Origin: Syntrophomonas sp. | Lineage (GTDB): Bacteria; Bacillota; Syntrophomonadia; Syntrophomonadales; Syntrophomonadaceae | Length of the DNA stretch: 64,000 nucleotides | NCBI GenBank assembly: GCA_016841425.1 | Contig: JAENZE010000014.1 | Coordinates: 1 to 64,000, forward strand | Reading direction: 5' to 3' | In this document: piece after piece, positions 24,967 to 61,562 of the stretch | Layout of the letters: each line of letters opens with the position of its first letter | Numbering within the stretch: the stretch's first letter is position 1 | Position numbers and translations under genes: made by a program | Notes under the pieces: model-generated | What the model was told of the DNA's origin: nothing | Database searches by the model: none | Seen by the model: the letters and a program-made list of their open reading frames with translations, nothing else

Positions 24967-25254
24967 TGGTTTTACCACCCTTATCCAATACGCAACAAAG
25001 GTAACAGGATTTATTAATTTGAATATTTGATAAGTAATTTTATCTCATGAAACCTTTGCCCTACTAATAAAGTCGCCTATAATTCATTTAAATTATCTTG
25101 TTCCACATTCAGCAGGCATTCACCTGCGTAATATATTACAATTTAGAATAAATTTACATAATTGGGCTAACTAAATTTTCAATGTTAGAGGCAAATGAAA
25201 GTGCCTCTATTACTGATTTTAACTAGCTCAACTTATAAAAAAGTCTTAATGGAT

Positions 25255-28984: not shown

Positions 28985-30929
28985 ATATATCCCCTCCTGG
29001 GGTTACCTGACCAGTCATCACCTTAACAATTCTATTATAAAGGCTTGTTATTGGTGCGGGAAAAACCTTGTTCTGAACCATAGTTTCAGCGATTATTCTC
29101 ATATCCTTTTGGCTTTTACAAGAATGTGGTTGATGTAAAGCAGCATATAAAAAGGCTTTTTGAAGATCTTCCTGGCATATTGAGTTATCTTGGCATTTTA
29201 TATCACCAAGTGAAAATTCAGCAAGATTTGAAGGAAAGTTTACGGGAAGTAGCTCTTGAAAGGGCTTTTCTATGTTTTTCTTAACAAAGTCTTTCCAACT
29301 ATCATTGTTTAACTCATGACCAGCATCTTGGTAACATCTAATTATCGCTTGATATAGGATATCTACAGGCACATAATATAAAAGCATTACCTCCATATCA
29401 CATCCTGTACAGAAGGATAATAGAGATTTCTTTGGCATACAAATAACATGCTCAGCGGATTTTTTTGATAATTCATATAGATCAACTTTCTTATGTGCGT
29501 CAGGGTCTTCCACCTCTTTTTTGGGGACATCATAATCAAGTAAAGCAAGTGTAGTAATCCCTAAAGCCCTAAGATTACGTGCATGCCTCCAAACTTTTTC
29601 ATTGCCACCCGCATTAACAATAGTAAGACCCAAGAAAAATGGATTATTAACCGGTTTTTTACCCAAAGCATTGAATACTATAGGTAAAAAGCCTTCTTCA
29701 CTTGCCCCCTCCACAATAAGTGCATGTTGAGCTAATAAAGCGCCAGCGTAAAGGTCACGATATTGTTCTAGAGCTTTTCTATAAACTGGTTCTAAAGTCG
29801 AACCTACTCTAACTTGTGTTGATTGTCGTGAACGGCTGGTATTTCGTGATACCCTACATATCGGATTTGCGCCATGAAGTTCTCCAATGAAAGCAGGAGA
29901 ATGAGTGGTAATGAACACCTGACCCGTTCTTTTAGCATTTTTAGTGGTTATCTCATTAAAAAACCATTTAGCCAGGGAAGGTTCAAGGTTTTGCTCTGGT
30001 TCTTCTATGGCAACGATTAGGGAGGAATCTTCTTCGCTTAAAGCAGCTGAAATTTGGGTAAGGAGCATCAAATTTTGTGCTCCATCTCCCAGTAAAGAAA
30101 AGGGAATTATATTTTCTTGGGTTTCGGACTTTTTTTTCAATCCTACTGATGTGGCGGTTTTAAAGCGTGCTATGTTGGCATCAAGGAAAGTCAAGGTAAA
30201 ACTATCAAATCCCCCAACTAATTCAGGAGACATGAACCCCTCTAGATTATTTAAAGCATTTTTAACGCTATCCAATTCGACTAAGCTTGATTTATTCGTT
30301 TCTAAAATGCCCATTAAGTTTCTAAGTTCTCTTATTACTTCTTTTTCTTTCAATGCCTTAGAAAAAAGACTCTGCCTAGCTAACGATAGTTCAAAAGCGG
30401 GGTTGCGATTCGTTCCATAGTAACGAAAGTTAATTGCCTCTCTATCCTGATATGTAAAAACGCCTTTTTTGTTGATCATTTCATCTATTATAATTACTTC
30501 AGTCTCAGCAATTTCTAATTCCTGATTCCAATCAGCTATAAGTTTTACTGCCAACAACTCTTCGGTTTTATCAGGTGGATCTTCCCCGGGTTCAATTATT
30601 ACGGTTTCAATAATTTCTCCCTTATGCTTCCAACAAGATACTTTATCTGCAAATCTAAGGATAATATCATTGTTTGGATTTTCTCCTAAATGCACCCAAG
30701 CTGTAATTTCTATTGGTTCGTTTATGTTTCCATTATGAAAATCAAAAACTGATATTGCATCGTCCCGCTGCAGCCGAATGGTTGGATCAAACAACAACTT
30801 AATAGCAGTTAAAATAGTTGTTTTACCACTATTATTGGGACCCACCAAAACATTTACTTCTTGATTGGGTAAAAACCATAATTCATATAAACTTCTAAAA
30901 TTATTGATTTTTAATGCCCGAATATACAT
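28962..30929 (-). CDS. gajA: OLD-family ATPase/TOPRIM nuclease, GajA of a Gabija-type defence system
   Basis: The protein has 655 residues. The N-terminal ABC/RecF-like ATPase starts at residue 1 (RALKINNFRSL) with Walker A VGPNNSGKTT (29-38), a signature-like LLGDGAQNLM (~278-287), Walker B IVAIEEPEQNLEP (~304-316) and a THSPAFIGEL segment. The C-terminal TOPRIM domain has the glutamate in LIVEGASEEGFLP (~401-413) and the acidic pair in LALLDYDVP (~460-468). This is class 2 OLD architecture, as in Gabija GajA. It is longer than the usual ~580 residues, mostly by C-terminal extension. AGGAG lies before the ATG, and the gene is first in a four-gene minus-strand unit. Confidence 0.85.
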   Translation of the reverse strand: MYIRALKINNFRSLYELWFLPNQEVNVLVGPNNSGKTTILTAIKLLFDPTIRLQRDDAISVFDFHNGNINEPIEITAWVHLGENPNNDIILRFADKVSCWKHKGEIIETVIIEPGEDPPDKTEELLAVKLIADWNQELEIAETEVIIIDEMINKKGVFTYQDREAINFRYYGTNRNPAFELSLARQSLFSKALKEKEVIRELRNLMGILETNKSSLVELDSVKNALNNLEGFMSPELVGGFDSFTLTFLDANIARFKTATSVGLKKKSETQENIIPFSLLGDGAQNLMLLTQISAALSEEDSSLIVAIEEPEQNLEPSLAKWFFNEITTKNAKRTGQVFITTHSPAFIGELHGANPICRVSRNTSRSRQSTQVRVGSTLEPVYRKALEQYRDLYAGALLAQHALIVEGASEEGFLPIVFNALGKKPVNNPFFLGLTIVNAGGNEKVWRHARNLRALGITTLALLDYDVPKKEVEDPDAHKKVDLYELSKKSAEHVICMPKKSLLSFCTGCDMEVMLLYYVPVDILYQAIIRCYQDAGHELNNDSWKDFVKKNIEKPFQELLPVNFPSNLAEFSLGDIKCQDNSICQEDLQKAFLYAALHQPHSCKSQKDMRIIAETMVQNKVFPAPITSLYNRIVKVMTGQVTPGGDIFELTDKD

Positions 30930-31146: not shown

Positions 31147-32457
31147 TTAATCATTGAATAACTCCATTTTATAAGGATAATCATATGATTTAATTTTCTC
31201 GAAAAGATGCTGCCTTCTATTAATATCAAACTCCTTCCGGAAATGGAATATTATCTCTTTTAAGTAACTCAGAGGTAAGTCGTTTAGTCCTGTTTCCTTA
31301 CAAGCAAAAACATGCCTTTCTGCTGTCTTTAGTTTTTCAGGCAGTTCATCATATAGGTCTGCACCTATCATATAGTCCAATATTTTTATGTTGACTTGAT
31401 CAAAAGGCACCTTTATTGCATACTCGAAGCACTCATTGATAGTCCTCTCTGTTTCCATGGGAGCTCCCAATATAAAATTCCCCACCGTATATATCCCTAT
31501 TTCATCAGCATATTGGATTAATTCCGCAGCTCTTGCTGGATCTATTTTTTTTCTATAAAAGTGAAGAATATCATGATTTACTGACTCAATTCCCATACTT
31601 ATTACTGATACGTTTGCCTTCTTGGCAATATCTATAAAGTCGAAATCTATATTAGCCCAGCTGCTAAGTGCTAATTTCATTCCTTCAGAAATTCTTTCAG
31701 TTTTAAGGCTATGTAATATATTCTTTGCTCTCTTAAGGTTAAAGGTAAAATTATCATCACAAATCCAAATATTAGTATATTTATTTGCTGCAATTTCCTT
31801 AAATTCTTTAATAACATATTCTATCGAATGTTCCCGATATTGACCTAACCATCCTTTTCTCTGGCAAAACCTGCAAGTATTCATGCATCCACGGCTGGTT
31901 TGTATAAGTGTTGATTTTGCTAAATTAGGCTTTCTTTTAATAGTACCACCATGTTCAGCATAACTAGACAAGATGCTACGATCTGGGAAAGGCAGATCAT
32001 CTAAATTATTGTCTCTATCTTTTAATAAATCAGTTACGACTTGCTTATCATTCAATAAGCAATCAATAACGTAAACGATGCTGGGTTCAGCTTCATGATT
32101 AATCACAATATCAATATTTGGAATAGCCCGCGGTAATAAGATGCAGTCATTTCCAACAGCAATAGTTTGTATTTTTCTATTATTTCGTTTAATATATTCC
32201 GCTATATTTTCACCGTTATAAATATTTAGTGCTCTTTTTAGCGGGAAACTATCAAATTCAATAATGACCACATCGATTGTTTTCAAAAGCTCAGCTAATT
32301 CGTTCAGCTCAAAATTCTCAATTGAATAATCTTTTAATATTACAGCATGCCCTACCTGTTTTAAAATGGTTGCTAAATATAATAAATTTAAAGAAAACCC
32401 AAATCGCCAGTCCTTAAGATTATCCGGTGACGGATAAATTAATAATATATTAGCCAA
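31147..32457 (-). CDS. B12-binding-type radical SAM enzyme
   Basis: The 436 residues fall into an N-terminal cobalamin-binding-like Rossmann domain (NILLIYPSPD at the start, then a VVIIEFDSF strand) and a radical SAM barrel. The [4Fe-4S] motif is CMNTCRFC at ~190-197 and a conserved NFILGAPMET stretch follows. The classical DxHxxG cobalamin motif is not obvious, so it may not bind B12 even though the fold is of that class. Relatives perform methylations or rearrangements in natural-product and RiPP pathways. The gene start overlaps the toroid gene by 8 bp, and it is the last gene of the cluster. Its likely substrate is the 44-residue precursor peptide or a small molecule made by the neighbours. 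Confidence 0.82.
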   Translation of the reverse strand: MANILLIYPSPDNLKDWRFGFSLNLLYLATILKQVGHAVILKDYSIENFELNELAELLKTIDVVIIEFDSFPLKRALNIYNGENIAEYIKRNNRKIQTIAVGNDCILLPRAIPNIDIVINHEAEPSIVYVIDCLLNDKQVVTDLLKDRDNNLDDLPFPDRSILSSYAEHGGTIKRKPNLAKSTLIQTSRGCMNTCRFCQRKGWLGQYREHSIEYVIKEFKEIAANKYTNIWICDDNFTFNLKRAKNILHSLKTERISEGMKLALSSWANIDFDFIDIAKKANVSVISMGIESVNHDILHFYRKKIDPARAAELIQYADEIGIYTVGNFILGAPMETERTINECFEYAIKVPFDQVNIKILDYMIGADLYDELPEKLKTAERHVFACKETGLNDLPLSYLKEIIFHFRKEFDINRRQHLFEKIKSYDYPYKMELFND

Positions 32458-33265
32458 AATCTAATATCCCACTCCTCATAACTTCTGACATCGCATACAT
32501 TCCCCAGGAAGCTCCATCTTCTATTTCATGGTATTTCCAAATACCATTATTTAATTGGTTGCTTATTATCCATTCAAATGCCCTTGCAAGTACTCGTTCC
32601 GGCACAAGTTCAGAATATTGTAACAATCCCAGAACAGCCAGGCTAGTACAATATATGTCTGACTCTATAGGATGCTCTAACCAGGGCGCAAAACCTCCAT
32701 CATTTCTCTGGTTAGAGATTAACCACTCTACCAAGTCGGTAATTAAATTTATATCATCAGGATAATAATCATTTTTATTAAATGCTAATAACGTATAAGC
32801 TGCTTTATAGGTTAAGGTATTTTTTTCTTTTTGGCATAATTGCTCCAACAAATATAAACTATGTTGGTCAGCAAGTTCCGGTAATAAATAGAACAAAACC
32901 CCAGTTACTGGTATTCTGTAAATATCCCGATATGACCTCCCCCATAAACCTTCTGAATTCCTTTGAATCTTCAAGAATTCTATCCCCATATTTATGTTCC
33001 GCTCAAATGTATTTTCATCAACGCTTTTTAAAAAAAATGTATTCCACATTGTATCAACTATACTTATCCAACCCCCATCAGAATTTTGATTATCTAAACA
33101 CCTTTCAATTATGTTAGTGGGTATTGAATTCTTTGATATTCCACTTAACATTAACAGTGATGATGTCTTGCTTATTCTTTTCAATTCAATTTCCTTTTCA
33201 TTCATCTCAATTATCATATTTTGAAGAGAAGCCGCTGTTTTTATTAAATACTTTAAGTTATGCAT
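32450..33265 (-). CDS. Alpha/alpha-toroid protein (prenyltransferase/squalene-cyclase-like repeats)
   Basis: This 271-residue helical protein has QW-like repeats: NQNSDGGWISIVDTMW (~70-85), RNSEGLWGRSY, NQRNDGGFAPWLEHP and NQLNNGIWKYHE. These are the hallmark of the terpene-cyclase/prenyltransferase alpha-alpha barrel. It is about half the size of squalene-hopene cyclases and lacks an evident DxDD motif, so catalysis as a terpene cyclase is unlikely. It may bind a hydrophobic substrate or peptide. Start and stop overlap both neighbours by 8 bp, indicating tight co-translation. Confidence 0.72.
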   Translation of the reverse strand: MHNLKYLIKTAASLQNMIIEMNEKEIELKRISKTSSLLMLSGISKNSIPTNIIERCLDNQNSDGGWISIVDTMWNTFFLKSVDENTFERNINMGIEFLKIQRNSEGLWGRSYRDIYRIPVTGVLFYLLPELADQHSLYLLEQLCQKEKNTLTYKAAYTLLAFNKNDYYPDDINLITDLVEWLISNQRNDGGFAPWLEHPIESDIYCTSLAVLGLLQYSELVPERVLARAFEWIISNQLNNGIWKYHEIEDGASWGMYAMSEVMRSGILDFG

Positions 33266-34415
33266 TATTCTGCTCCCTCTTTATTTTTATTTCCGAAAAT
33301 TGAGTATCTCGAAATATGGGGTTTATGTTCCTTATGTTTTGCAGGCCTGTTAGCCACATAAAAAGACGCTCTACTCCTAATCCAAATCCGGATAACAAAA
33401 TATCAGAATACGGTATCATATTTATATACCACCTGAGTTGTTTTTCTACCCCAGCAAGTCTAAACTTGCTTTCCAAGATATTTAAATCACTTTGTTTTTC
33501 ATTACCTTCAGCTATTTCTCCAACCTTTGGAACCAATAGATTGTAAGAAAGAGAATAATTACTATCAACAGGTTTTGCAATCCATGATGCTATTTTTCTC
33601 GGGAACTCAACTACAAAAGTTGGTAAATTTCCCGCAATTTCTCGCTCGAATTTACCAAGACCTTTACTATATAAACTGTACTGGTCTTCAAGTTTTTTAT
33701 AGTCTATTATAGGGAAATTTGATTTTTCAATAAGGCTTGAATCCACTTTAAGCAGGTAACTAAAGGGGCTGATAGCCCATTCTGATACGACAAATTTTAT
33801 TAGGCATTCTAGTTCAAACATAGATTGATTCATGTCACAATTAGCCTTAACCATTTCCAACATATCAAATTCTGCTAGATGTCTGTTAGTATGGGAAGGC
33901 TCTGCTCTATAACATTTCTGTAAACAATAAGCTTTTGATAACTGGGCAGCATAAAGATTAAGATAAAGGGCGTTGCTCGAGGAAAGCCGGGCTGGATTTC
34001 CAAAAAAGTCAAGAAAGAAAGTCTCATCTTTGTTTTGTCCATAGTGTACTGAGGGTACTCTAACTTCAATATATCCATTATTATTTGCATAAAGCCTTAA
34101 AAGATGAAGCAAATAGGAATATGCTTGTAAAATATCTAATTGCTGCTCATCCCATAAGGATTCACTTTTTTTTGGCAGATGATTCTGAAGCTGGATTATC
34201 CTAAATTCATTATCTGCCAAATTAACTTGGAATTCACAATAGTCCCCTTTTCTTATTTTTTTTACTTTATTAAACACAGTAATATCAATCGAATCTTTAC
34301 TACAAACAAGTGAGTTTTCTTCATTGTTGGATAATAGTGTAATAAAAATAATTCCACCCAGGTTTCTTACCCCTGAGACTCGTCCGTCTAAGGTATTATT
34401 TGATTCGTTTATCAT
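33258..34415 (-). CDS. AsnRS/AspRS-like class II aminoacyl-tRNA synthetase paralogue
   Basis: This 385-residue protein begins with an OB-fold-like region (residues ~8-80, VSGVRNLGGIIFITLL) followed by a class IIb catalytic core. Motif 2 reads CYRAEPSHTNRHLAEFDMLE (~168-187) and motif 3 reads GFGLGVERLFMWLTGL (~346-361), so the ATP-binding arginines appear intact. It is shorter than AsnRS (~430) and the OB domain is divergent. A housekeeping synthetase would not normally lie inside such a cluster, so I infer it makes an aminoacyl-adenylate, aminoacyl-tRNA or amide for pathway use, as asparagine synthetase A does. It overlaps the upstream gene by 20 bp and the downstream one by 8 bp. Confidence 0.8.
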   Translation of the reverse strand: MINESNNTLDGRVSGVRNLGGIIFITLLSNNEENSLVCSKDSIDITVFNKVKKIRKGDYCEFQVNLADNEFRIIQLQNHLPKKSESLWDEQQLDILQAYSYLLHLLRLYANNNGYIEVRVPSVHYGQNKDETFFLDFFGNPARLSSSNALYLNLYAAQLSKAYCLQKCYRAEPSHTNRHLAEFDMLEMVKANCDMNQSMFELECLIKFVVSEWAISPFSYLLKVDSSLIEKSNFPIIDYKKLEDQYSLYSKGLGKFEREIAGNLPTFVVEFPRKIASWIAKPVDSNYSLSYNLLVPKVGEIAEGNEKQSDLNILESKFRLAGVEKQLRWYINMIPYSDILLSGFGLGVERLFMWLTGLQNIRNINPIFRDTQFSEIKIKREQNNA

Positions 34416-35619
34416 TTATTTTTCTCCAATATAGTATTTTCCCGCTTTTTGATTGTTTTACAATATCAAAGCCGAGTCTTATATTAAGAGCATGAACAGC
34501 AGTATTATCCATGAATGTTTTGGCATCTACATAGCTAAATTTATTATAAACTGTTCTGATTAATAAATCCGCATAGCCTTTACCACGGTACTTTCGTGGG
34601 ATTAATATCTCCTCAATAATCGCCCCCTGGTTGGATCTGCCACCTTCTCGAATATAACCAACAATATTATTGTTGTTGTCCTCAGCAATATAAATATGGC
34701 GTTCATCTCTTATATTAGTTTTTATTACGTCTAGCTTCTGATCTAAAGCCAGAAATTTTCTATCCTGTGCACTGAGCTCAGTAAAAATTTCGAACAGCTT
34801 CGTACGATCCTCTCTAGCTACTCTTCTTATCCAAACTTTTTCAAGAAATAGTCTTTTGAAATTATTTCTCAAAATATTTTCCCGGTCTTCATCGGTCACA
34901 TCAAGTTTATCTATCATTTCAGTCTCTGCTTGGTATATATCTACTGATGGCTGGGAAAATGGATAGTCTGAACCAAACAATACCCGGTGCCCGCCCAGCA
35001 TATTTGTCATTTTGCTGATTACCTTACTATCCGAAATGGTTGAGGTATCAAAATAAAGATCTTCATATGATTTGAATTCAGGAACAACTAGATCTAATAC
35101 TTCTTCTCCGGTGAATGGCCATTTTCTACCGGAATGAGCCAGAATTATTTTAAGATGTGGAAATTCATTTTTGATATGGTGAATCCGTTCTATCCGTTCA
35201 CTCATATGAGGGTGTATATACAGGAACTTGCCTTTGTCCTGCAGATACTCATAAACAGGAAAATATGCTCTAATATCAACGTTCCGGCTTATGTAAAAAT
35301 GTTCTTTTAGACCAAACACCTGATTTAGTTCGAGTTCATCAAGGTCAAGCTGTTCATCAAGTAAATAAAAGGGAATAAAAAGTTCACGGTTCATTTCGTA
35401 GGCAGTATGTATATAATTGTTGGCTTGATAAATATCCACTTCTTCTAGAGGAAATGGAAAGATTAATGCCTTATAAATGTTATTTTTTACAGCGATTTTA
35501 ATATATTTTTCCCAGGTATTTTCTATAATCGAATTGTAAGCAGGTAGATCCCTGTTTTCATTTTTAATTTTAACCATGAATTTCTTTTTTCCTATGTGTA
35601 CATGAGTATCAAAAATCAT
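34396..35619 (-). CDS. Fusion of amidohydrolase-2 TIM barrel and GNAT acetyltransferase
   Basis: Residues 1-~255 form an amidohydrolase-related TIM barrel, with FDTHVHIG at 3-10, HPHMSER near 137, ILAHSGRKW near 155 and LFGSDYPFSQP near 215. These are the expected metal and catalytic positions of the ACMSD-type amidohydrolase-2 family. Residues ~260-407 are a GNAT N-acyltransferase with the acetyl-CoA motif RKYRGKGYADLLIR near 345 and a C-terminal LNIRLGF segment. The two domains are in one continuous frame. The gene starts 3 bp after the membrane coiled-coil gene. A combined hydrolysis/decarboxylation and acetylation role on the cluster's product is plausible but unproven. Confidence 0.82.
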   Translation of the reverse strand: MIFDTHVHIGKKKFMVKIKNENRDLPAYNSIIENTWEKYIKIAVKNNIYKALIFPFPLEEVDIYQANNYIHTAYEMNRELFIPFYLLDEQLDLDELELNQVFGLKEHFYISRNVDIRAYFPVYEYLQDKGKFLYIHPHMSERIERIHHIKNEFPHLKIILAHSGRKWPFTGEEVLDLVVPEFKSYEDLYFDTSTISDSKVISKMTNMLGGHRVLFGSDYPFSQPSVDIYQAETEMIDKLDVTDEDRENILRNNFKRLFLEKVWIRRVAREDRTKLFEIFTELSAQDRKFLALDQKLDVIKTNIRDERHIYIAEDNNNNIVGYIREGGRSNQGAIIEEILIPRKYRGKGYADLLIRTVYNKFSYVDAKTFMDNTAVHALNIRLGFDIVKQSKSGKILYWRKINDKRIK

Positions 35620-35622: not shown

Positions 35623-37104
35623 TTAATCCCTCTCACTCAAAGCCTTATCATCAAGCATGCCTTGTATTTCTTGAATAAGTTCCATATTACCAGGGAAACC
35701 TCGCCCATCTAATTCACTTAGCTCTTCCTTGAGTCTGTTAAGGAATATATCCTTTTCTTTTTTGTAAGTAATCATTTTTACAGATTTTTTTAGCAGTGTT
35801 TGTATATCTTCACTTTGACGCTCGTCCATAATTTTAGCCATACTCTTATAATATGTAGCACGAGCTTGATCCCAATAAGTATTGAAATCAGGGTTCTTAT
35901 CTTCTACGAAAGATAGATGATTTTCTGCCTCGTCTAGCAAGTTTCCTATTTCCTTTTTTGTGCTTTCAGGGTTCAAATCCACCTGATTATTATTCAAGTG
36001 CCCTATCTTTAATTTAACTAAATCAATCAACACAACTGCCAGATTACTTCGGGCCTGAATTTGATCGTTTTCTCCTCTTAGTTTCAATGATTTATAGTAG
36101 TATTCTCTTGATTTTTCTAGTATATCAACCAATTGTGCTTCATTATATTTTTGCTGATATTTTTCAAATTTCGTATGATATAATTCACCCATAAAGTGGT
36201 ATAGATATGGTTCAATAGCCGAATTAGGTTTAAACAAATTTCTATTTTCGTTAAATTGATATATCTTTTCAGCATCTTTTAATTTTTCTTCATCAATAGA
36301 GTCTGGATCAGAAACTAGTTCATGAGCTATAATTACTTCCAGCCATGCAGTCTCTTCATGTTCAGCAATTACTGAATCAGTAATATTCTCAAGAGTTTTT
36401 TGGTCTTCATCATCATTTAAATTCAACTTAAACGAAATATTTGAAGAGTTAGTCTTTTTTGATTCAAACTTCTTCTCAACCCATTCAGCATGTTTTTTCT
36501 TTTTCAGTAAGAAGTCTACTTTCGATTCGAGGTCCAAATATTTTCTAATTGCTTCCGTCATTTCTGTCCTTTGTTTCTTTATTTGGTTAATATAGTTGTT
36601 ATTATCTTCCTTCATTTTTCTCTCTTGTTCTTGAATTTCGATAAAATATTTATCAATATCTTCCCTCATAACGTCTAAACGCGAACTATAATCTTCAAAT
36701 TGCTTCTGGTAGCTTCGCCAGCCTATTAATGCAATAATAGCAATTAATACCGCAATAGCAGTAAATAATGAAGCGTAAAAGTTATTTAACGTAGAAACAG
36801 ACAAATTATTTTCGTGGTTATAATCGTTATATTTTTGAATCTCCTCTAATGTTTGCCGCATCTCTTCATACTGATCTTTACTCAAAAAGACTTTTCCAGT
36901 ATCTGAATTATTAAAAGTAGTTTCTACATTAAAAGTCATTATCCGTTCTTTCACTGACTCTTTACCAACTCCCCATATAAACCATAAAAAATACCCGAAA
37001 TAAAATATACCCATAAATATTAAAATTATAATTACTATTTCCCATATATTGGTATGTTTTAATATCTGGCAGCTTCTTTTTTCTGTGTTCTCCCCCTTAT
37101 CCAT
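35623..37104 (-). CDS. Membrane-anchored coiled-coil/TPR-like protein
   Basis: This 493-residue protein has two membrane helices (~16-48, IWEIVIIILIFMGIFYFGYF; and ~108-130, ASLFTAIAVLIAIIALIGW). A short segment between them is probably outside the membrane. A long charged coiled coil (~131-215) and a helical TPR-like C-terminal half (~235-490) follow. I know no named family. In the cluster it is immediately downstream of the precursor peptide gene and could be an immunity, sensor or scaffold protein. No ATPase or permease motif supports an exporter. Confidence 0.7.
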   Translation of the reverse strand: MDKGENTEKRSCQILKHTNIWEIVIIILIFMGIFYFGYFLWFIWGVGKESVKERIMTFNVETTFNNSDTGKVFLSKDQYEEMRQTLEEIQKYNDYNHENNLSVSTLNNFYASLFTAIAVLIAIIALIGWRSYQKQFEDYSSRLDVMREDIDKYFIEIQEQERKMKEDNNNYINQIKKQRTEMTEAIRKYLDLESKVDFLLKKKKHAEWVEKKFESKKTNSSNISFKLNLNDDEDQKTLENITDSVIAEHEETAWLEVIIAHELVSDPDSIDEEKLKDAEKIYQFNENRNLFKPNSAIEPYLYHFMGELYHTKFEKYQQKYNEAQLVDILEKSREYYYKSLKLRGENDQIQARSNLAVVLIDLVKLKIGHLNNNQVDLNPESTKKEIGNLLDEAENHLSFVEDKNPDFNTYWDQARATYYKSMAKIMDERQSEDIQTLLKKSVKMITYKKEKDIFLNRLKEELSELDGRGFPGNMELIQEIQGMLDDKALSERD

Positions 37105-37198
37105 TTTAGACCTCTTCCCTTCACTATAAGTCCCCTGGACAAACTAGGAGCCCGACTTGCATCGACCTCCTAGTAAAACATAATTATCTTAATATAGT

Positions 37199-37333
37199 TT
37201 AGTTACAGTTGCAGTTAGTACAGCCAAAACACCATTTTCCATCACCAAATTCTTCCCATATCTCCTTGGAAAAGTTCATTTCCTGTTCTTCCTCAAACAC
37301 TGGCGTTTGGTATTCCTTTTTATTGCCTTCCAT
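37199..37333 (-). CDS. Cys-rich RiPP precursor peptide candidate
   Basis: This 44-residue frame begins one base after the stop of the PqqD-like gene, with GGGGGTG upstream. The first ~33 residues are an acidic leader (MEGNKKEYQTPVFEEEQEMN, then an amphipathic FSKEIWEEF stretch and GDGK). The last 11 are WCFGCTNCNCN, with four cysteines spaced CxxCxxCxC among Gly, Thr and Asn. Leader plus compact Cys/Asn core, next to an RRE protein and a SPASM radical SAM enzyme, is the standard layout of sacti-/ranthipeptide-type RiPPs. No known precursor family (SCIFF, Clo7bot) matches exactly. The mature product is unknown. Confidence 0.8.
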   Translation of the reverse strand: MEGNKKEYQTPVFEEEQEMNFSKEIWEEFGDGKWCFGCTNCNCN

Positions 37334-37334: not shown

Positions 37335-37622
37335 CTATTCACCCCCTGTAATTAATATTTCTTTATCCAGCCATGTTTGCAGCAAATTCTTAAAGTCAAT
37401 CATCATTGTATCTTTCTCTCCTTGATACATATCATTAAACAATGTAAATACTTTATTGGCATCCCTTTTGCCATCAAACAGCGCCAGCATATCATAGCTG
37501 ACCTCATTCAATCGGTAGATGCTTCCATCTTCAATGTTGAATAGATAATATTTTATATCATTAAATTCACCTTTAAACAAGCTATAACTGCTGCTAAGAG
37601 CATAGACCTTATTCTCCATCAA
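37335..37622 (-). CDS. PqqD-like RiPP recognition element (RRE) protein
   Basis: The 95 residues match the PqqD winged-helix fold: a beta-strand part (YYLFNIEDGSIYRLNEVS), then YDMLALFDGKRDANKVFTLF, and a final helix FKNLLQTWLDKEILI. RRE proteins bind the leader of the precursor and deliver it to the modifying enzyme. It lies between the SPASM enzyme (17 bp upstream) and the precursor (1 bp downstream), as expected for a discrete RRE. Confidence 0.8.
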   Translation of the reverse strand: MMENKVYALSSSYSLFKGEFNDIKYYLFNIEDGSIYRLNEVSYDMLALFDGKRDANKVFTLFNDMYQGEKDTMMIDFKNLLQTWLDKEILITGGE

Positions 37623-37639: not shown

Positions 37640-38653
37640 CTATTTCCAGCATTGGGGATCTTCAGCCATATAGCTCCCGTTAACAGAATAAGCAATGGCT
37701 CGACATCCTCCACAATTCTGCAGCAAAGTACATTCTTTGCATTTTCCGGTCAATAGTTTTTTGTTTCTTATTTGCCAAAGTACATCTGATGTATACCAAA
37801 TCTTATAGATTCCATCTGAAAATATGTTACCTAAAGGTATTTCCAATCGCCGACAAGGAAGAATGGTGCCATCATGCAGTATACATAAACTGGTAAATCC
37901 TACCGGGCAAAAGCCTCCTATATCTTCATTTATAAGCGTCCAGAGGGGACGAGATACACGAATTTTTAAATCTGAATTTTTTTCGACTTTTTCTTTTTTA
38001 TGATAAATTTTATTGTATATTTCGTGTAAATTTTCTGGTGATATAAACAGCTTCTCTATATCATTCTCACTCATGGGAGTAACCCGTTCTATAGTAATTG
38101 CATCAACACCCAGTTCGTTGGCTAGATCTATAACATTCAACACATCATTTTGATTCAATTTATGCAGGGTAAACATTATGGAAACATAAAATCCATACCT
38201 CTTCAATAATTTAATACCATTTACAGCTTGTAAAAAGCTTCCCGTTCCCCTGATCTGGTCATGAATGCGTGCATTTGATCCATCAATGGACACCTGTATT
38301 TCACTTAGCTTGCCAAAGCGAGCAAGTTTAATTGCTATACTGTCATCGATTAACGTTCCATTTGTTAATATTCCTATCCGTCCGAAATATTCTGAATTGT
38401 CAAAGAATTCGATTAAATCCACTAAATTACTCTTACTAGTAAAAGGTTCTCCTCCCGTCAGAGAAATCCTTCCAATTTTTCTCCATTTTTTTAAAGTATT
38501 TTCCATTGTTTCTGCAATAAATAACATTTTTTCCCTGGACAGTTCATTAGTATTGTAATGATTCTGGTAGCAATGGATACAACGCAAATTACACTTTACA
38601 ACGAAGTGCCATTGAAAATAAAACTCGTTTTCTACAGCCTTAGCATCGTACAT
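37640..38653 (-). CDS. SPASM-domain radical SAM peptide maturase
   Basis: This 337-residue enzyme has the radical SAM cluster motif CNLRCIHC at ~21-28, the SAM-binding GGEPF (~67-71) and a SIDGSNARIHD segment. A C-terminal SPASM domain supplies cysteines FCPVGFTSLC, ILPCRR, CKECTLLQNCGGCRA and PQCW for auxiliary [4Fe-4S] clusters. SPASM enzymes form thioether or carbon-carbon crosslinks on ribosomal peptides. The adjacent RRE and Cys-rich peptide make it the probable crosslinking enzyme. It starts 32 bp after the SEFIR gene and could be co-transcribed with it. Confidence 0.88.
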   Translation of the reverse strand: MYDAKAVENEFYFQWHFVVKCNLRCIHCYQNHYNTNELSREKMLFIAETMENTLKKWRKIGRISLTGGEPFTSKSNLVDLIEFFDNSEYFGRIGILTNGTLIDDSIAIKLARFGKLSEIQVSIDGSNARIHDQIRGTGSFLQAVNGIKLLKRYGFYVSIMFTLHKLNQNDVLNVIDLANELGVDAITIERVTPMSENDIEKLFISPENLHEIYNKIYHKKEKVEKNSDLKIRVSRPLWTLINEDIGGFCPVGFTSLCILHDGTILPCRRLEIPLGNIFSDGIYKIWYTSDVLWQIRNKKLLTGKCKECTLLQNCGGCRAIAYSVNGSYMAEDPQCWK

Positions 38654-40531: not shown

Positions 40532-42571
40532 TTACACCGCCCCCAGCGCTTTAAATACGGAATCTATTGGATCAGAATAAAATATCGGCTGGATTTTTAT
40601 CAGCAGCTCGGGTGGTACGGTCTGGAGGTCGGCTACTGATACGGCTGGAATCAGTACCCGTTTAGCTCCGGCATCTACGCAGACCTGCAGGACATTGGCG
40701 AAATCAGAGATTTTTTCTATTGTTCCCGATACAGTAATTTTTCCTAAAATAACCAGGCTCTCCTGAACCGGTCTTTCCAGGGCGCTGGAACAGAGGCCAA
40801 TGAATTCAGCCAGGGCCAGCTCGGAACTCATTCCAATACCCTGCAGGTCTGAGGCATGCATTAAGTAATCTCTGGTCTTGGTACTGATACCTGCACTAAC
40901 ATTTTTACAGTTAGCGGTAAAATACCGGAAAGCGGTATCAATGGCTTCCTTGACCTCTTTACGTGAACCCAGTCCAGTTCTCTCAAATTTACCTGTACCT
41001 GAAACGGCCTGATTCTCCAGCTTAAAAACGCCGATCATCCCGGAGTCTCCTTTTCCAACCACATAGACATGTCCGGGTTTGCCTAATCCCTCGGGAATCA
41101 GTTTTCCACCGCCCTGTTCAGGTACAGCTACAAATTCTTCCTGCAAACTTTCACGGTCGATATATGAGAAATGAACATCATAGAACTCCATGCCACCTAT
41201 TTTTTTGAGCTGTTCCTTGACCCTGCGCCGGCCAATAAGTGCATACTGCAGTATTTCAGCAACATCATCCCGGGTGAACTCTCCATGCGGATAGAGCAGT
41301 TTCATCAAGCCGGATACGGTCTTGCGCACTGCAATAACATCCCGCTGATTAAGGTTATTACCCAGTTTAAAATAGCGGTCAATTGCATCAGCAAAATTGT
41401 GCTTACGCATTTCCCGCAGATACTCAGCCAGGTAGTCTACTATAAATCCATAATTATTAGTAATTAACTCAGGGCGCATCTTCGGGATTTCCCATCCGGG
41501 CAGATAGTAATGCATACGATCAAAAAAGGCGCTGTCATTAGCCATTTCTTCAGGAAATGGTGCAAAGAGATGGGAAGTCTTCAGGAGAAAATCCAGGCTT
41601 TCATTAATATTGCCTACAAAAACCATAGAAGCATTGGCGTTTTTCTCTTCCTTGCCCCGGGCAAAGGAACCTGACGCCATATAATCCTTCATTATTTGAA
41701 TACCGTCTTTATCTTTAAATTTGATACCGGCAACTTCATCAAATGCCACACAATCCCAAAGTCCTACCAGCCCGATGGATCGAGATGCCATATTGTAGAA
41801 TAGATTAGCAACCGTAGTCTGCCCTCCTGATACCAGGATAGAATTAGGCGAGATTTCTTTATAAATATGTGATTTTCCCGTCCCCCTTGGGCCCAGTTCA
41901 CATAGGTTATAGTTATTTTCCACCAGCGGTACCAACCGCAAGATTATGTGCCACTTAACTTCAGGTTCAAACTGGGTAGGTTCCAATCCGGTGGAACGAA
42001 TTAACACATCCATCCATTCATCTTTAGTGAAATTTTTACGTCCCTCCAGGATCTCATCTAAGTCCATATTAGGCATTTGAATAGGTTTGAGGCTTTCAAT
42101 GCGGAAGGGATTATTGTTACGATTCTCTTCATCATAAAAATATTCCATCTTTAGTATGACCCATATACCACCGGCCAGAAGCTTGTCATACTTTTTAACA
42201 TAATCAGGGTTAACCGCTACTCCTTTTAGCCCCAGATTGGAGAATTCAGCTTCATAAATATCACGTTTTTCATTCAGTTTGACCGTTAGCTTGTCTATAA
42301 CTGTATACTGGCCTAGTTCCTTAATATGTGACTTAACTTTTTCAGCTTCATCTGGACGGACGAAATTATCAGCCAGGATTTTCTTAACTCGTTCTACTCC
42401 CTCAAGAATAGCTTCGTCATCATCCGTAGCACAGTACATACCGAGAAGATATTCGAGCACGTAGGTAGGTACATTGGCCCCCTGTTTTATCATATTGGTC
42501 AGATCTTTGCGTACTACCCGGCCTGCAAAATACTGGTTCAGTTTCGTATCCAGATTTATCTCATCCATCAT
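40532..42571 (-). CDS. brxL: BREX type 1 Lon-like protein BrxL
   Basis: This 679-residue protein has an AAA+ core (Walker A ELGPRGTGKSH at ~227-237, VAFDEVAGI Walker B) and a C-terminal Lon-protease-like domain (~540-670; GIGMSSELALAEFI, then ITVSGTIEKISDF and RVLIPA). BrxL is the last gene of type 1 BREX and forms DNA-bound hexamer barrels that help exclude phage. An 84-bp gap separates it from pglZ, filled by a palindromic repeat at 42595-42673 that might affect read-through. The AbiGi gene follows 33 bp on. Confidence 0.9.
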   Translation of the reverse strand: MMDEINLDTKLNQYFAGRVVRKDLTNMIKQGANVPTYVLEYLLGMYCATDDDEAILEGVERVKKILADNFVRPDEAEKVKSHIKELGQYTVIDKLTVKLNEKRDIYEAEFSNLGLKGVAVNPDYVKKYDKLLAGGIWVILKMEYFYDEENRNNNPFRIESLKPIQMPNMDLDEILEGRKNFTKDEWMDVLIRSTGLEPTQFEPEVKWHIILRLVPLVENNYNLCELGPRGTGKSHIYKEISPNSILVSGGQTTVANLFYNMASRSIGLVGLWDCVAFDEVAGIKFKDKDGIQIMKDYMASGSFARGKEEKNANASMVFVGNINESLDFLLKTSHLFAPFPEEMANDSAFFDRMHYYLPGWEIPKMRPELITNNYGFIVDYLAEYLREMRKHNFADAIDRYFKLGNNLNQRDVIAVRKTVSGLMKLLYPHGEFTRDDVAEILQYALIGRRRVKEQLKKIGGMEFYDVHFSYIDRESLQEEFVAVPEQGGGKLIPEGLGKPGHVYVVGKGDSGMIGVFKLENQAVSGTGKFERTGLGSRKEVKEAIDTAFRYFTANCKNVSAGISTKTRDYLMHASDLQGIGMSSELALAEFIGLCSSALERPVQESLVILGKITVSGTIEKISDFANVLQVCVDAGAKRVLIPAVSVADLQTVPPELLIKIQPIFYSDPIDSVFKALGAV

Positions 42572-42594
42572 TCCCGCCTCGCTTTCGGTGCATA

Positions 42595-42673
42595 GGGGTC
42601 AGGCCTGACATTAACATTTACTTAATGGTAAATATCAACACTGACATTAGGTATCAATGTCAGGCCAGACCCC
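42595..42673. repeat. REP-like palindrome between pglZ and brxL
   Basis: ggggtcaggcctgacatt (42595-42612) and aatgtcaggccagacccc (42656-42673) pair with one mismatch, and ctgacatt/aatgtcag gives an alternative smaller hairpin. The outer motif ggggtcagg recurs at 60618-60659, so it is a dispersed repeat. It fills the only sizeable gap inside the BREX core. Confidence 0.8.
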
Positions 42674-42676
42674 ATA

Positions 42677-45229
42677 TTAAAAATCAAAATCAGAACTAAT
42701 CGCCAGATTTATCTGGAAAGGTATTTTGTCCTCATTCAGTTCAGTTTCAACATCCTTTATTATCAAGAAATAATCCTTATTTTTATTATATTTTCCAGTC
42801 TGCAAAGTCAGCCGCACTTTGTAAGTCCTATCTCCAGCTTTATCAGAAGTTTTGTCAGCAATTATGGTCTCTCGGCTGCTCAAAACATTACCATTATCAT
42901 CTTCTATATAAATCACAACTGTTCGAGGAATATTCCGGTCATCTACCCTTTCGGTCTGGAAAAACTCCAGGCTGAATAAATTGTTGGTGATCTTGCGTGA
43001 CTCATTCAGCAGTTTTACTTTGACCTTGCTGGCTTCTTTTTTCTTCAGGTTTGATCCCCGTTCTGCTTTATATTTAATCAAGGGAATTACTAATTCCTGT
43101 AGAGATGCACCACCGTGAACAAAATTGGCTCCTGCTCCCTGTACCTTGAAGCGTATGGCCGCCCGGGGAACGTATACCACCGGCTGCCCGGCCGATGATT
43201 TTAGATACTCAGGTTTAAACATCATTAAGGCATCACTTTCCATTTCCTGATAACTCAGCATATAACGGCGGGTTTCTTCAATTGCTCCCAGAGTTTCTTT
43301 TTTGATTTTATCGCTTTCAACCAGCGGGTCCCGTTTATATAGGAATCCATGGTCAGCAGTAAGATATATATTTACCCCGCTCAAATCATCCCGAATAATG
43401 CGGATCAAACGGTAAATCTCTTTCTCAGTCTGCTGCACCGCACCAAAAACTTTGATTTCAGTAGCTGCTTTATCGCCGATAGCATCAATGCTGTCGTGGT
43501 AAATATAGATCAATTTTTTGCCTTTAACCAGTTCGCGGCGTTCTTCTTTATTCATATCAATAATATTCTTGTAATGGGCTGCAGCAGCCTCAGGCACATA
43601 TTGTTTTAATATCTTTTCCCGCTCCTGTAGACTGTCGGTTCTATTGCCATCAGCCATAACCCGCTCATTCTCCAAGCTGATTTCCTGATGGGGTAAAAGG
43701 GCTGCCATCCCATATTTAGTAGCGGAAGGCAAAACTCCCATCATGGTATCCATTTTAGCCGTACCGGCAGTTTCAGCATTGAGCCTGCCTGCTATATCTA
43801 CTGCTGATTCATACCTCAGCGCATCGGAGATTATGACAAAACAGCGCTCACCTGATTCCATAAAGGGAGCCAGTTCCCGCTTGTAAAAACCCTGCTGGCT
43901 GGTAACACCGTCTATTTTTAGGTCACTGCCTGTATAATTGTTTATAGCTGCTGACCAGGCGGTTCCCAATCCTTCCAGGAACCAATTGCTATATATGTTC
44001 TCCACCTTTGTACGAAGCAGTTTTAGTACTTCTACCGGGTTCTGATCATAATACCAGTAAAACTGGCGGTAATAGTAATCAATATTATAATAATCACTGG
44101 CATAACCTTCCCACAGCTGCTGAATATTGAGCCCCGGTATGTCCGGATGCTTTTTGTGATACTGCTGTATTTTAATAAGATTATAAATTGCTTCATAAAT
44201 ACTTTGATACTTTTCATACCAGTGTTTGCTGCGCCGGATTTCAATCAGACCCAGGCACTGTTCATAATTTTGGATTTCATTATGGATGGATTCCACTATA
44301 TAATGCAGAACCTTTTTATCAAAGACTTCGAAAATATCACACTCGCTTAAAGATTCTATACTCACCGAATCCAGCCGCTCAGCAATATTCAAGGCTGCAT
44401 CTATGCTGGCTGCTAACTGTTCATAAGCTTTCTTATCGGCCTGGTGGTTCATCCAGCTATCAACGAAGAAAATGCAGTTAGCTTTTCCCTGGGCAGACAG
44501 ATATTCTTTAAGAGGGCTGAGCTGACTGTCATCCAAAACCCGGCTGAGACTGTTAATTAGAATATGAGATGCCAACTTATGTAAGGAGGACTCCTCCCGA
44601 GTATACCCGAAATATTTATTCACATGCTTCCAAAAAACCTGACTATCCATAAGCCGGCTGATTTCAGATAAATAGCGATTATTATCTTCTTCCAAACTTC
44701 CTCCCAGGACCTTTTTAAATACCTGGAGCTGGTCGGGATATTTCAAGCCACATAAAATCGACATCATAGCCAACTCCAACCCAGCTTCATCATAGCCGTT
44801 AACTCCATAACCAGCCAGCTTTTTACGGCGTTCATTGCTGTTGAAGAACTTCTGATAATCTTTAACCAGGGGTTTAAGGGTCTTATTTATCCCCAGTTCT
44901 TCCATCTGCAGGGCCAGCCGGTCAGCAGAAAATTCGTAGGAATATAACACTATATCGATCAACCAGTTGTCTTCATCCCTGGCTGGTCGGTTATTGGCAT
45001 AAATCAGATAGTTGGATTCAGTATCCTCTGTCTCCAGGAGATATTTAGTACAAAAATAGTTAGTCTCAGTAAGACGATGCAGCTTGGCATTTTCCAGCTG
45101 CAGTTCGTCAATCAGGTCAGCAAACTGACCTTCAGTATCATACCAAAAGATTATTTTACGTTTTTCTCCGGCTTTCAGATTGGCTGAAAATTTGCTCTCC
45201 AGGTTCTGTTTTATAAGTTCCAGTTCCAT
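42677..45229 (-). CDS. pglZ: BREX type 1 PglZ
   Basis: This 850-residue PglZ has an alkaline-phosphatase-superfamily core: FVIISDALRYESAVD at ~460-474 (metal-binding Asp), TKYGMAALLP, and YLTADHGFLYKRD at ~619-631. PglZ is the other gene that defines BREX with BrxC/PglY; it joins the methyltransferase complex. The N-terminal ~400 residues are helical, as usual, and the length fits type 1. It begins 14 bp after pglX. Confidence 0.92.
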   Translation of the reverse strand: MELELIKQNLESKFSANLKAGEKRKIIFWYDTEGQFADLIDELQLENAKLHRLTETNYFCTKYLLETEDTESNYLIYANNRPARDEDNWLIDIVLYSYEFSADRLALQMEELGINKTLKPLVKDYQKFFNSNERRKKLAGYGVNGYDEAGLELAMMSILCGLKYPDQLQVFKKVLGGSLEEDNNRYLSEISRLMDSQVFWKHVNKYFGYTREESSLHKLASHILINSLSRVLDDSQLSPLKEYLSAQGKANCIFFVDSWMNHQADKKAYEQLAASIDAALNIAERLDSVSIESLSECDIFEVFDKKVLHYIVESIHNEIQNYEQCLGLIEIRRSKHWYEKYQSIYEAIYNLIKIQQYHKKHPDIPGLNIQQLWEGYASDYYNIDYYYRQFYWYYDQNPVEVLKLLRTKVENIYSNWFLEGLGTAWSAAINNYTGSDLKIDGVTSQQGFYKRELAPFMESGERCFVIISDALRYESAVDIAGRLNAETAGTAKMDTMMGVLPSATKYGMAALLPHQEISLENERVMADGNRTDSLQEREKILKQYVPEAAAAHYKNIIDMNKEERRELVKGKKLIYIYHDSIDAIGDKAATEIKVFGAVQQTEKEIYRLIRIIRDDLSGVNIYLTADHGFLYKRDPLVESDKIKKETLGAIEETRRYMLSYQEMESDALMMFKPEYLKSSAGQPVVYVPRAAIRFKVQGAGANFVHGGASLQELVIPLIKYKAERGSNLKKKEASKVKVKLLNESRKITNNLFSLEFFQTERVDDRNIPRTVVIYIEDDNGNVLSSRETIIADKTSDKAGDRTYKVRLTLQTGKYNKNKDYFLIIKDVETELNEDKIPFQINLAISSDFDF

Positions 45230-45243
45230 AATTCCTCCGCAGT

Positions 45244-48200
45244 CTACTTTATTTTAGCCAGCAGTTCATCAAATTTGGCATAATTGACTTTAACCCCGTC
45301 ATCCAGGTCTAGATCAATACGCATGTCTGCATAATGGTGAATAATTTCTTCATATTTTTTTAGTTCCAAGATCTGTTTGTCCAGTTTGGCTATGTTTTTA
45401 ATCGCAGTACGGGCGGCTTTACTCCCAGCTTCTTCATCTATGATTCTCTGCAGGTGCTGCTTCTCCACTTCCAGGGCTTCCTGCAGACGATGCAGATACT
45501 CGGTTCGGACAGTGGCAATGGTATCCTGCTGATATCGGTGCAGGTAAATCAAGCAGTTGAAAGCCTTTTCCTTTCCCGAGGTAAACATCCAGTAGATAGG
45601 ACGTTTTTTATAGGTCTGGATATGATCCTTATAAAAGTCATTTACGAAATAACGACGAATGCTGTCCCGGGCACTTTCACTGGCTTTACGTCCCAGGGTA
45701 TCAGCTATTAAATCAAGGTTCTCTTCCAGTTTTTCCGTACCAAAAGTAAGCCGGACGAAGTCAACAAAGCGGGTAACAATATCATCTTTGAAATAATCCT
45801 CAACCAGCACCGGGATCACATTATCCCGGTCAGCCGCAAAAGTATTATACTGAGCAGAGTCAAATTCACCCCCGGCAAAGACCAGACCCTCTTTATCCAG
45901 GGAATAACGTCCCAGCATACAGCCGACCCCATAGGATATGTATTCCTTGATAGTATCGTGCAGAAGCAGGGCTTCCAGTTCTTCCTCTGCCCTGTCCCCC
46001 CCATAGCGGTAATAAGGATTGCAAGTAAGGGTGATCTCTGACAGCGGAACTTCTGGAGTCAGCTCATCCTGCAGCCCATAGGCTTCGATGAAGATGCGGT
46101 TGTTCTCCTCCTCCAACCGTTGCATCTCCAGAGTCATCTCTCGCCAGTGATTCCGGAGATCATTGTAGGTTTCGTGTATAGTTGATTGGTGGTATTCAGG
46201 TTTTAATAATGGAAGTATGCTAAAATCCCAGGATGTCTCATAGGAATCCCAGTCAGATTTTGCCAAAGAAATCAAATTGTCTATTTCTTTATAGAAAAAT
46301 CTATTCTTGCTTAGCACTTCATATAAAGGAATTGGTAAACGTATTACATCAGCAATTTGAAGATTAATGGTTGGATTAAGTAATTTTAATATAATCATTG
46401 ATGGAGCCGAATTTAGACATGCAAGAATATATTTTCTTTTTTCTCTAGTGCTAAAAACTCCTGGTCCCCCGGAGTCGTATAAACAACCTTCTGGTAACCA
46501 TCTCATACTGAATGGTCCACTTGTAATATATGAGAATCCAACAGATGGTAGAAAATAATAATCAATGTTAACTATAGTTCTTGTATAGGACTTGTTTATG
46601 GTCTTCGCAAACTCAATAACATCCCTCCCAGAATATTCCCAATTTATATAAAACTCCATAAATCCATACCATTTTCTATTTCCTCCGCCTTTACTATACG
46701 GAAACCATTTGGCATGTGAAGCTAACGCTTCATCAGCATTTTTTGCACCTCTAAATACTTTTTCATTATTAACCTCAGGCCAAAACCTAAGAAATCTTTC
46801 GTTATTAGATGTAGTCATTCCTCGTTTAACATCAGCAAATTCCCCCAGGGGAATACCATTTTCAAAGCTAGCCAAAAGCCTCTCACTCACCCAATACACA
46901 ATCGGCGAGCCAGGAATTTTTTTGAAATCGATGGCGGATACTCTATACGGCTTAAAACGATTTGCTTTGAGTTCCGCTTCTTTATCTGCTTCACAGTTAC
47001 CGGCTACGAGACGTAAGTAAGCTCCTTTATATTCTGCATTTTGAGCATTTTCTATCACAAAAGCAGTAGTAGAAACCACTTCTCCGCCTATACTGTCAAA
47101 TGCCCTTGCACCTAAGTGAACCATTGATAGAATAGTTTTACGATTCAAGATCTCTTCTCGCAGTTTTTCAAAGGATGATAAAAACATCCAACTCTGCATT
47201 GTAATCATCGCTTCTAATCCATGTTTAACTGCTAAATCTAAATTGCGTTCAATAAACATGGCAAATAAGTCAGATTTGCCATCTGGATAGTTATCCTGCG
47301 CAAAAACTTTTATCCTTTCATTCATACTCCTATTACCCATATAAGGAGGATTGGCTATCACCACATGGTATTTGGGACTGAGATAATCCACCTGTCTGAG
47401 TGCCTGCAGCACTTTCTGATGGGTTTTGTTCAAGAACAGATTGTCAGCTACGTTCTTGGATTCGAGCAACTGCAGAATATCATTTACATCACTCAACTCA
47501 GGTCTAATCAAAGAGCCGAAATTATCGGCTTCTTCAAACTGCCCGAGAGTGGGGAATAGACTTGCAGTAAACAGGTCAATACCTATTTCTTCTTTATAGT
47601 TTTTCAGTTCATCCTTATCAAACTGTATATTTTCCAGTACACAGATGTTAGGCTGCACCGGCTTGCGGAAAAAGCGACGGTATTTCTGGCGGGCTTTCAT
47701 CACCAGGGCAAAGGCAGCCAGCTCTCCGGCGCGTTCATCAATTTCAATGCCATAGAGGTTTTTCTCCAGAATCAGACCCGGTACCTCAGTAAGGAGATAA
47801 CCTTCTTCTTCATAGATAGCATATAAGAGGTCAAAAGCGTAAACCAGCATATGACCTGAACCACAGGCAGGATCACAAATCTTAATTTCTTCAGGTGATG
47901 TAATTTTAAGAAAGTCGAATTCTTCCTGTTCCGGCTTTATGTAATACTCCATCTTTTCAATCAGCTTCGATTCGGGGTGGTTCAGCATCCACAGCCGTCC
48001 CAGGGAATTTTCCACCAGGTAGCGCACTATCCAGTGGGGAGTAAAAAGCTGAGTAGCGGCGGGGATGTTTTCTTTATTGATTTTTACGTTTTTCTTCAGA
48101 TCAGCAAAGACCTGGTCTTTCTTTTCCGATATATAATACTGATAAAGCCAGCCTATTATCTCTACATCCCTCCAGTCTGCTTCCGGTATAAATTCAGTAT

Positions 48201-48780
48201 TAACCATGGTTTGGAGAAACGAACCTTCTTTCAGCAGGTTATCAGGAAAGAGTATTTCTGAATGATCTTCAATTTTCTCAAACAAAAACGGAAAACATTC
48301 ATTCAGGCTGTTGCACTGCTTGATCAGCATATATTTAAACAGTTCATTGTTGTCATTTTTCTCTTTAAAATCAAACACTATCTCCCGCTCTATATCCAAA
48401 TCAACATTAAGAGCTTCCCGTAAGATATCAGGTTCAACGCTGCCGGGCAAAGTGGAAGATAATACTCTTACCCCGGTGGGCAGGAAATTATTGATTTCCA
48501 TAAACCGCAAAGCGCAGAAGCGGTTAAACCAGGTGTAAGCGGCCTCTTCCATCACTTGTGAATAACCTTTGGTATGTATCTGCTTGATCAGATTATTGCG
48601 CTGTTTTACCTGGACATTACTCAAGGGCTTCCCATTTATGTATATGGCATCACTGGCTTCGATCTGAGCTTCTTTTACCTTGTCCTCAGTAATACCGATC
48701 TCATAAGCTTTTTGCTTTACTCTCTCTATAAGTTCATTACGGGCATTAACCGCGAAATTCTTCAAGATGGATTTATTCAT
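45244..48780 (-). CDS. pglX: BREX type 1 adenine methyltransferase PglX
   Basis: The 1178-residue protein has SAM-binding motif CDPACGSGHMLVYAF (~300-314) and catalytic NPPYMGN (~478-484), marking an N6-adenine DNA methyltransferase, followed by a large C-terminal target-recognition and coiled region. PglX methylates one strand of a non-palindromic site, so BREX can tell host from phage. All motifs appear intact and I see no frame interruption, unlike the phase-variable pglX genes of some strains. It starts 41 bp after brxC. Confidence 0.93.
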   Translation of the reverse strand: MNKSILKNFAVNARNELIERVKQKAYEIGITEDKVKEAQIEASDAIYINGKPLSNVQVKQRNNLIKQIHTKGYSQVMEEAAYTWFNRFCALRFMEINNFLPTGVRVLSSTLPGSVEPDILREALNVDLDIEREIVFDFKEKNDNNELFKYMLIKQCNSLNECFPFLFEKIEDHSEILFPDNLLKEGSFLQTMVNTEFIPEADWRDVEIIGWLYQYYISEKKDQVFADLKKNVKINKENIPAATQLFTPHWIVRYLVENSLGRLWMLNHPESKLIEKMEYYIKPEQEEFDFLKITSPEEIKICDPACGSGHMLVYAFDLLYAIYEEEGYLLTEVPGLILEKNLYGIEIDERAGELAAFALVMKARQKYRRFFRKPVQPNICVLENIQFDKDELKNYKEEIGIDLFTASLFPTLGQFEEADNFGSLIRPELSDVNDILQLLESKNVADNLFLNKTHQKVLQALRQVDYLSPKYHVVIANPPYMGNRSMNERIKVFAQDNYPDGKSDLFAMFIERNLDLAVKHGLEAMITMQSWMFLSSFEKLREEILNRKTILSMVHLGARAFDSIGGEVVSTTAFVIENAQNAEYKGAYLRLVAGNCEADKEAELKANRFKPYRVSAIDFKKIPGSPIVYWVSERLLASFENGIPLGEFADVKRGMTTSNNERFLRFWPEVNNEKVFRGAKNADEALASHAKWFPYSKGGGNRKWYGFMEFYINWEYSGRDVIEFAKTINKSYTRTIVNIDYYFLPSVGFSYITSGPFSMRWLPEGCLYDSGGPGVFSTREKRKYILACLNSAPSMIILKLLNPTINLQIADVIRLPIPLYEVLSKNRFFYKEIDNLISLAKSDWDSYETSWDFSILPLLKPEYHQSTIHETYNDLRNHWREMTLEMQRLEEENNRIFIEAYGLQDELTPEVPLSEITLTCNPYYRYGGDRAEEELEALLLHDTIKEYISYGVGCMLGRYSLDKEGLVFAGGEFDSAQYNTFAADRDNVIPVLVEDYFKDDIVTRFVDFVRLTFGTEKLEENLDLIADTLGRKASESARDSIRRYFVNDFYKDHIQTYKKRPIYWMFTSGKEKAFNCLIYLHRYQQDTIATVRTEYLHRLQEALEVEKQHLQRIIDEEAGSKAARTAIKNIAKLDKQILELKKYEEIIHHYADMRIDLDLDDGVKVNYAKFDELLAKIK

Positions 48781-48821
48781 CTGCGTATCACCTTTCTAAT
48801 CCGGATATATGATGTATACTG

Positions 48822-52379: not shown

Positions 52380-52394
52380 CCCTCCACAACTCGT

Positions 52395-52970: not shown

Positions 52971-52979
52971 CTCCTAGTA

Positions 52980-53582: not shown

Positions 53583-53649
53583 CGCACACACTCCGAATTA
53601 TTTTTATATGGTCAATCACCCTTTTTATTATAGCTTACTCTCTTGCCTA

Positions 53650-61560: not shown

Positions 61561-61562
61561 TT

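Follow-up and report, generated by a model that had tools for sequence, protein, structure and literature searches.

Among described peptide pathways, the PQQ and mycofactocin cofactor systems combine a discrete PqqD/RRE protein with a SPASM enzyme and use a peptide that is fixed across phyla, while the peptide of the ACGX system (TIGR04340) contains ACGX repeats. Ranthipeptides and sactipeptides (SCIFF/CteB, PapB, SkfB) have a short Cys-rich precursor with a C-terminal core, encoded beside a radical SAM (rSAM)/SPASM enzyme. The solved maturases of these two groups carry a fused N-terminal RRE (PMC8172795), an arrangement that is typical of ranthipeptide and sactipeptide maturases and not universal. 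In lasso peptides, YxxP is a characterized RRE recognition motif, and PqqD-like RREs are tied to W/Y/LxxP-type motifs (PMC12710340, PMC13381572).

Here we describe a peptide gene cluster in a 64,000-nucleotide window (the whole stretch of DNA that was analysed) from Syntrophomonas sp. The cluster shares with the PQQ and mycofactocin systems a discrete PqqD-like RRE, a SPASM enzyme and a peptide fixed across phyla, but differs from them in core and tailoring enzymes, and its rSAM enzyme scores under both family cut-offs. A short Cys-rich precursor beside an rSAM/SPASM enzyme is held in common with ranthipeptides and sactipeptides, whereas the RRE is discrete rather than fused, the core has the spacing C-x2-C-x2-C-(1-2)-C and the maturase falls under PapB-type model cut-offs (78 bits against 340 for the PapB model). 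The top NCBIfam match of the enzyme is the ACGX-system model TIGR04340, which aligns over the full length but, at 170.5 bits, lies far under the 400-bit cut-off, and the precursor core is devoid of ACGX repeats. Lasso peptide systems (TbiB1 with a YxxP leader) are closest by PqqD profile, have the YxxP motif in common and have an AsnB homologue, as do the clusters called type B below; however, the core described here is Cys-rich without lasso features and an rSAM enzyme is present. No B2 leader peptidase or lasso cyclase was found in the window cluster, the AsnB-like protein being confined to type B. Finally, a downstream toroid protein is modelled with the same fold as class II terpene cyclases (squalene-hopene cyclase) but is a single 270-aa domain and has no D-x-D-D motif.

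Results

The precursor gene occupies positions 37199..37333 of the minus strand and is translated as MEGNKKEYQTPVFEEEQEMNFSKEIWEEFGDGKWCFGCTNCNCN followed by a stop codon. The initial annotation had described a 44-codon frame, starting one base after the stop of a PqqD-like gene, with an acidic leader and a C-terminal WCFGCTNCNCN (CxxCxxCxC), and translation and coordinates bear this out: the peptide has 44 aa, an acidic leader with YxxP and MxF elements and a C-x2-C-x2-C-x-C core, its ATG lies at 37333 and the upstream stop ends at 37335. A good ribosome-binding site, cagggggtgaatagcATG, is in place, and such sites were also found in relatives of the gene. Among the 637 ORFs of at least 25 aa in the window, this frame is the only one with a C-terminal Cys motif of this sort. 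The peptide falls within none of the NCBIfam, Pfam or PHROGs families; NCBIfam matches of the precursors to cytochromes and ParB were weak and were rejected as chance. As it is missing from all the family libraries used, the precursor has probably been overlooked in current annotation.

Immediately upstream, the PqqD-like gene (37335..37622, minus strand; Pfam PqqD, E=9.4e-07) encodes a predicted leader-binding RRE protein. A profile of 11 homologues had the lasso RRE TbiB1 (5v1u, E=8e-08) as its top solved structure. Because of this match and because YxxP is a known RRE motif, we infer on good grounds, by analogy, that the PqqD-like protein binds the YxxP leader. The adjacent maturase gene (37640..38653, minus strand) encodes 337 aa with Radical_SAM (8.8e-23) and SPASM (5e-09) domains, of which the radical SAM domain begins at residue 18, the RRE being a separate protein. 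The enzyme has CX3CX2C and seven SPASM cysteines that do not vary among the aligned maturases. The nearest solved relatives are SkfB (3.3e-24, the best), a sulfatase-maturing enzyme, 5wgg, 5v1q and PqqE; SkfB, 5wgg, 5v1q and PqqE represent maturases of the sactipeptide, ranthipeptide and PQQ types.

Homologous loci were defined by an rSAM/SPASM enzyme with at least 40% identity, which gave 14 loci in addition to the window, 15 in all. Apart from the contig of the window itself, a scan with the rSAM enzyme (one genome per species) detected 11 loci at 40-59% identity; L016 and L017, with weak rSAM matches (20-25%) and no such peptide, were left out. A precursor profile added L040 (from G047) and L041 (from G348), each with its own rSAM and PqqD genes, and the precursor alignment led to a 133-kb contig of the viral set, L042, which likewise carries its own rSAM and PqqD genes. 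The rSAM scan itself matched nothing in the phage and plasmid records or in the viral contigs. The order rSAM, PqqD-like RRE, short Cys peptide is common to all 15 loci; in the 11 from the rSAM scan the peptide lies just 3' of the rSAM gene, with space for a PqqD-like gene between them. The alignment of extracted PqqD frames covered 11 of the 15 loci, all except L008, L010, L011 and L013; in L013 the frame was detected by tblastn. The short frame, for which a search beside rSAM homologues had been proposed, was kept at every rSAM/PqqD pair examined, neither absent nor broken by stop codons in relatives.

The hosts include Bacillota, Chloroflexota, Hydrogenedentota, Aminicenantes, KSB1 and deltaproteobacterial lineages, and most are represented by MAGs. 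The precursor family is rare and patchy: among 299 genomes from the same phylum as the window the profile gave two strong matches, in each sampled set of 68-400 genomes from other phyla it gave one or two, query genome included, and the precursor was missing from both same-genus genomes searched. Further profile matches in G280, G109, G143, G065, G056, G079 and G127 (E 5e-4 to 0.01) were treated as chance, since they covered part of the profile and lay mostly within long frames.

All 15 aligned precursors have Met1, Y8, P11, C35, C38, C41 and C43, and F21 is nearly invariant; Y-x2-P and the four cysteines are therefore common to all. Three close pairs gave dN of 0.038-0.057 and dS of 0.88-1.23 (dN/dS 0.04-0.05), a substitution pattern that indicates purifying selection on the precursor. 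Two core types were distinguished. The type A core, WCFGCTNCNCN, is found in the window, L040 and L042 and, slightly changed, in L005 and L006; the type B core, VC[RK]QCS[SG]CH[GS]CR, is found in ten loci. A branch with support of 98/100 separates the two types in the rSAM tree, and thus enzyme and core have evolved together. The type B ending CHGCR (L007-L015) resembles a C[RG]GCRA Cys motif in the SPASM domain of the cognate enzymes, a likeness that is perhaps a sign that the peptide binds Fe-S, or else a coincidence.

Mean identity within the two types was 0.89 and 0.88 for the core and 0.53 and 0.40 for the leader, as rough values from ungapped comparison. In bacteriocin-like RiPPs, the leader is usually kept while the core varies. 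The LPP family is one example, its N-terminus being conserved and its C-termini varying greatly (PMC13381572). The present family has the opposite pattern, with a core more conserved than its leader, and in this it is closer to carrier and cofactor peptides; such constancy of the core suggests that its function is fixed as well.

The 94-nt gap 3' of the precursor gene holds a stable hairpin (37132..37174, minus strand; -23.6 kcal/mol, z -3.1, equalled by 0 of 200 shuffles). It has no T-run and is not a canonical terminator; an attenuator or processing site is possible, and its position between the precursor and the downstream genes is as expected if the precursor is produced in excess. Beyond it, also on the minus strand, lies a gene for a predicted membrane protein of 493 aa (35623..37104) with two hydrophobic segments and a helical remainder, which matches no family, has a homologue in L040 only and gave a poor fold model (pLDDT 54). 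It is followed by an amidohydrolase-GNAT fusion (34396..35619, minus strand), recognized by family match and predicted to act as a tailoring enzyme in type A clusters; amidohydrolase homologues occur in L006, L040 and L042, the GNAT fusion being seen in the window. An AsnRS paralogue (33258..34415, minus strand), in which motifs 2 and 3 of class II are intact, is found in the window and L042 only (36% identity), and contig C11 of the same genome carries a separate AsnRS-like frame.

The gene for the alpha/alpha toroid protein (32450..33265, minus strand) is present at each of the 13 loci whose downstream sequence is long enough. Its model (pLDDT 94) superposes on squalene-hopene cyclase 2sqc with Z 26.6 and 2.7 A over 259 residues. 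None of 13 homologues has D-x-D-D, and ordinary class II cyclase chemistry is therefore unlikely; the invariant residues R30, D63, R113, D114, Y153, K154, H198 and H246 suggest an enzyme. Next to it is a B12-binding-type radical SAM enzyme, a methylase as predicted by family match (31147..32457, minus strand), with homologues in L006, L040 and L042; in the metagenome contig L042 this gene (11429-12741) is broken into two frames at about 12136 by a frameshift or sequencing error. Most type B clusters encode an AsnB-like protein, and in several there is also a large protein that contains a metallo-beta-lactamase domain, in place of which L008 and L014 have a protein of 560-580 aa without family match. 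The type B loci L015 and L041 also share a glycosyltransferase, a second radical SAM protein and a small P-loop kinase-like protein, and the L015 neighbourhood has PHP and HD/dGTPase-like proteins.

In the window, the peptide cluster is preceded by a complete BREX set (BrxA, BrxB, BrxC, PglX, PglZ, BrxL; 40532-53591), from which AbiGi and SEFIR proteins separate it, and is followed by a GajA/GajB (Gabija-like) pair (27146-30929); the cluster shares its strand with both groups. The region looks like an integrated island, because the BREX end is near a large serine recombinase beside tmRNA and SmpB genes, and insertion at ssrA is likely. The recombinase ORF (61554-63409) overlaps the 3' end of the tmRNA gene and adjoins SmpB. 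No att repeat of at least 14 nt was found inside the window. Elsewhere in the window, two large proteins (9532-12156 and 22489-24978) with very similar N-termini (KNYDTSxIxTKYSMPKANQYLVSRRRLHQKLN...VTAPAGYGKTT) are probable paralogous MalT/LuxR-type regulators.

Discussion

The general features of rSAM/RRE RiPPs are present in this family: a leader-core precursor lies beside a maturase and an RRE at all 15 loci, and the maturase has CX3CX2C and SPASM cysteines. The short gene is very probably the RiPP-type precursor of the neighbouring RRE and rSAM proteins. From its neighbours, a SPASM enzyme and an RRE protein, the initial annotation had taken the gene to encode a new precursor type, and its occurrence at 15 loci, the evidence of purifying selection, the YxxP motif and the lack of a curated-family match uphold this view.

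We infer each reaction of the pathway, and its biological function as well, as follows. The PqqD-like RRE would bind the YxxP part of the leader and bring the C-terminal Cys-rich core to the SPASM rSAM enzyme, which would form radical-derived bonds on the core. Thioethers from cysteines to neighbouring residues, as in ranthipeptides and sactipeptides, are the most likely candidates for these bonds, and we put the chances of thioether chemistry at about even. The toroid, the B12-rSAM enzyme, the amidohydrolase-GNAT fusion and the AsnRS paralogue (AsnB in type B) would act next, as tailoring enzymes on the whole peptide or on part of it. Among the scanned cluster genes none was recognized as coding for an exporter, a leader peptidase or an immunity protein, although exporter or peptidase genes may be located elsewhere in the genome. 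Given this and the fixed core, a cofactor-like, metal-binding or carrier-like peptide or an excised small molecule ranks above a diversifying bacteriocin as the product. A cofactor- or carrier-like role in particular is suggested tentatively.

Alternatively, the Cys/Asn or Cys/Arg C-terminus could serve as a pearlin-like carrier for a small molecule, which would be built up by the AsnRS paralogue, AsnB and other cluster enzymes and then cut off. The hyperconserved C-terminus, the many enzymes of small-molecule type and the intact motifs 2 and 3 of the AsnRS paralogue would fit such a scaffold, and there are pathways in which a scaffold peptide is accompanied by an AsnB-like amidotransferase (PMC12715798). 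However, a PEARL (PF04738-type) enzyme was not found among the scanned cluster proteins and the AsnRS paralogue is limited to the window and L042, leaving this reading rather unlikely.

It is less probable still that the product is an ordinary secreted bacteriocin of the sactipeptide or ranthipeptide type. While the solved enzyme nearest to the rSAM/SPASM protein is SkfB and the core is Cys-rich, that core is hyperconserved across phyla rather than diversified, and a transporter, protease or immunity gene was likewise unrecognized in the scanned cluster genes.

We regard as equally improbable a role in phage defence of the modified peptide together with the variable downstream proteins (the membrane protein or, in type B, the metallo-beta-lactamase-type protein). 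The window cluster does lie on the same strand between BREX, AbiGi, SEFIR and Gabija genes, and PADLOC matches adjoin L011, L013, L015 and L042. A family-wide link to defence islands was nonetheless rejected as no better than the matched control: at a PADLOC threshold of 1e-20, about 9 of 76 flanking proteins matched against about 7 of 132 in 9-14 kb segments taken at random from these genomes (Fisher p ~0.11), both counts being approximate and taken from family tallies. RiPP clusters often adjoin defence genes in any case (PMC12715929), and known effectors are absent among the cluster proteins. PADLOC on the cluster genes gave only rSAM superfamily cross-matches, to pVip and PDC-M51A, and no match for the precursor, RRE, toroid or AsnRS-like protein. 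More doubtful again is an intracellular peptide cofactor or metal/redox module, made by the rSAM and terpene-cyclase-fold enzymes as part of anti-phage immunity, whose product, in contrast to secreted RiPP antibiotics, would work within the cell. Finally, a chance frame, which the short length and lack of a family match might suggest, is refuted by presence beside every homologous rSAM/PqqD pair examined and by low dN relative to dS; on this comparative evidence the 44-codon frame is a real gene.

Conclusion

The pathway that contains this gene is a new variant within the rSAM/RRE kind of RiPP, and no earlier description of it was found in the open-access literature that was searched. With its own RRE and maturase, the short peptide represents an uncatalogued family of probable RiPP precursors that extends over several phyla of mostly uncultured bacteria. 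The family links a predicted RiPP pathway to unusual enzymes, among them a terpene-cyclase-fold toroid, an AsnRS paralogue and an amidohydrolase-GNAT fusion.
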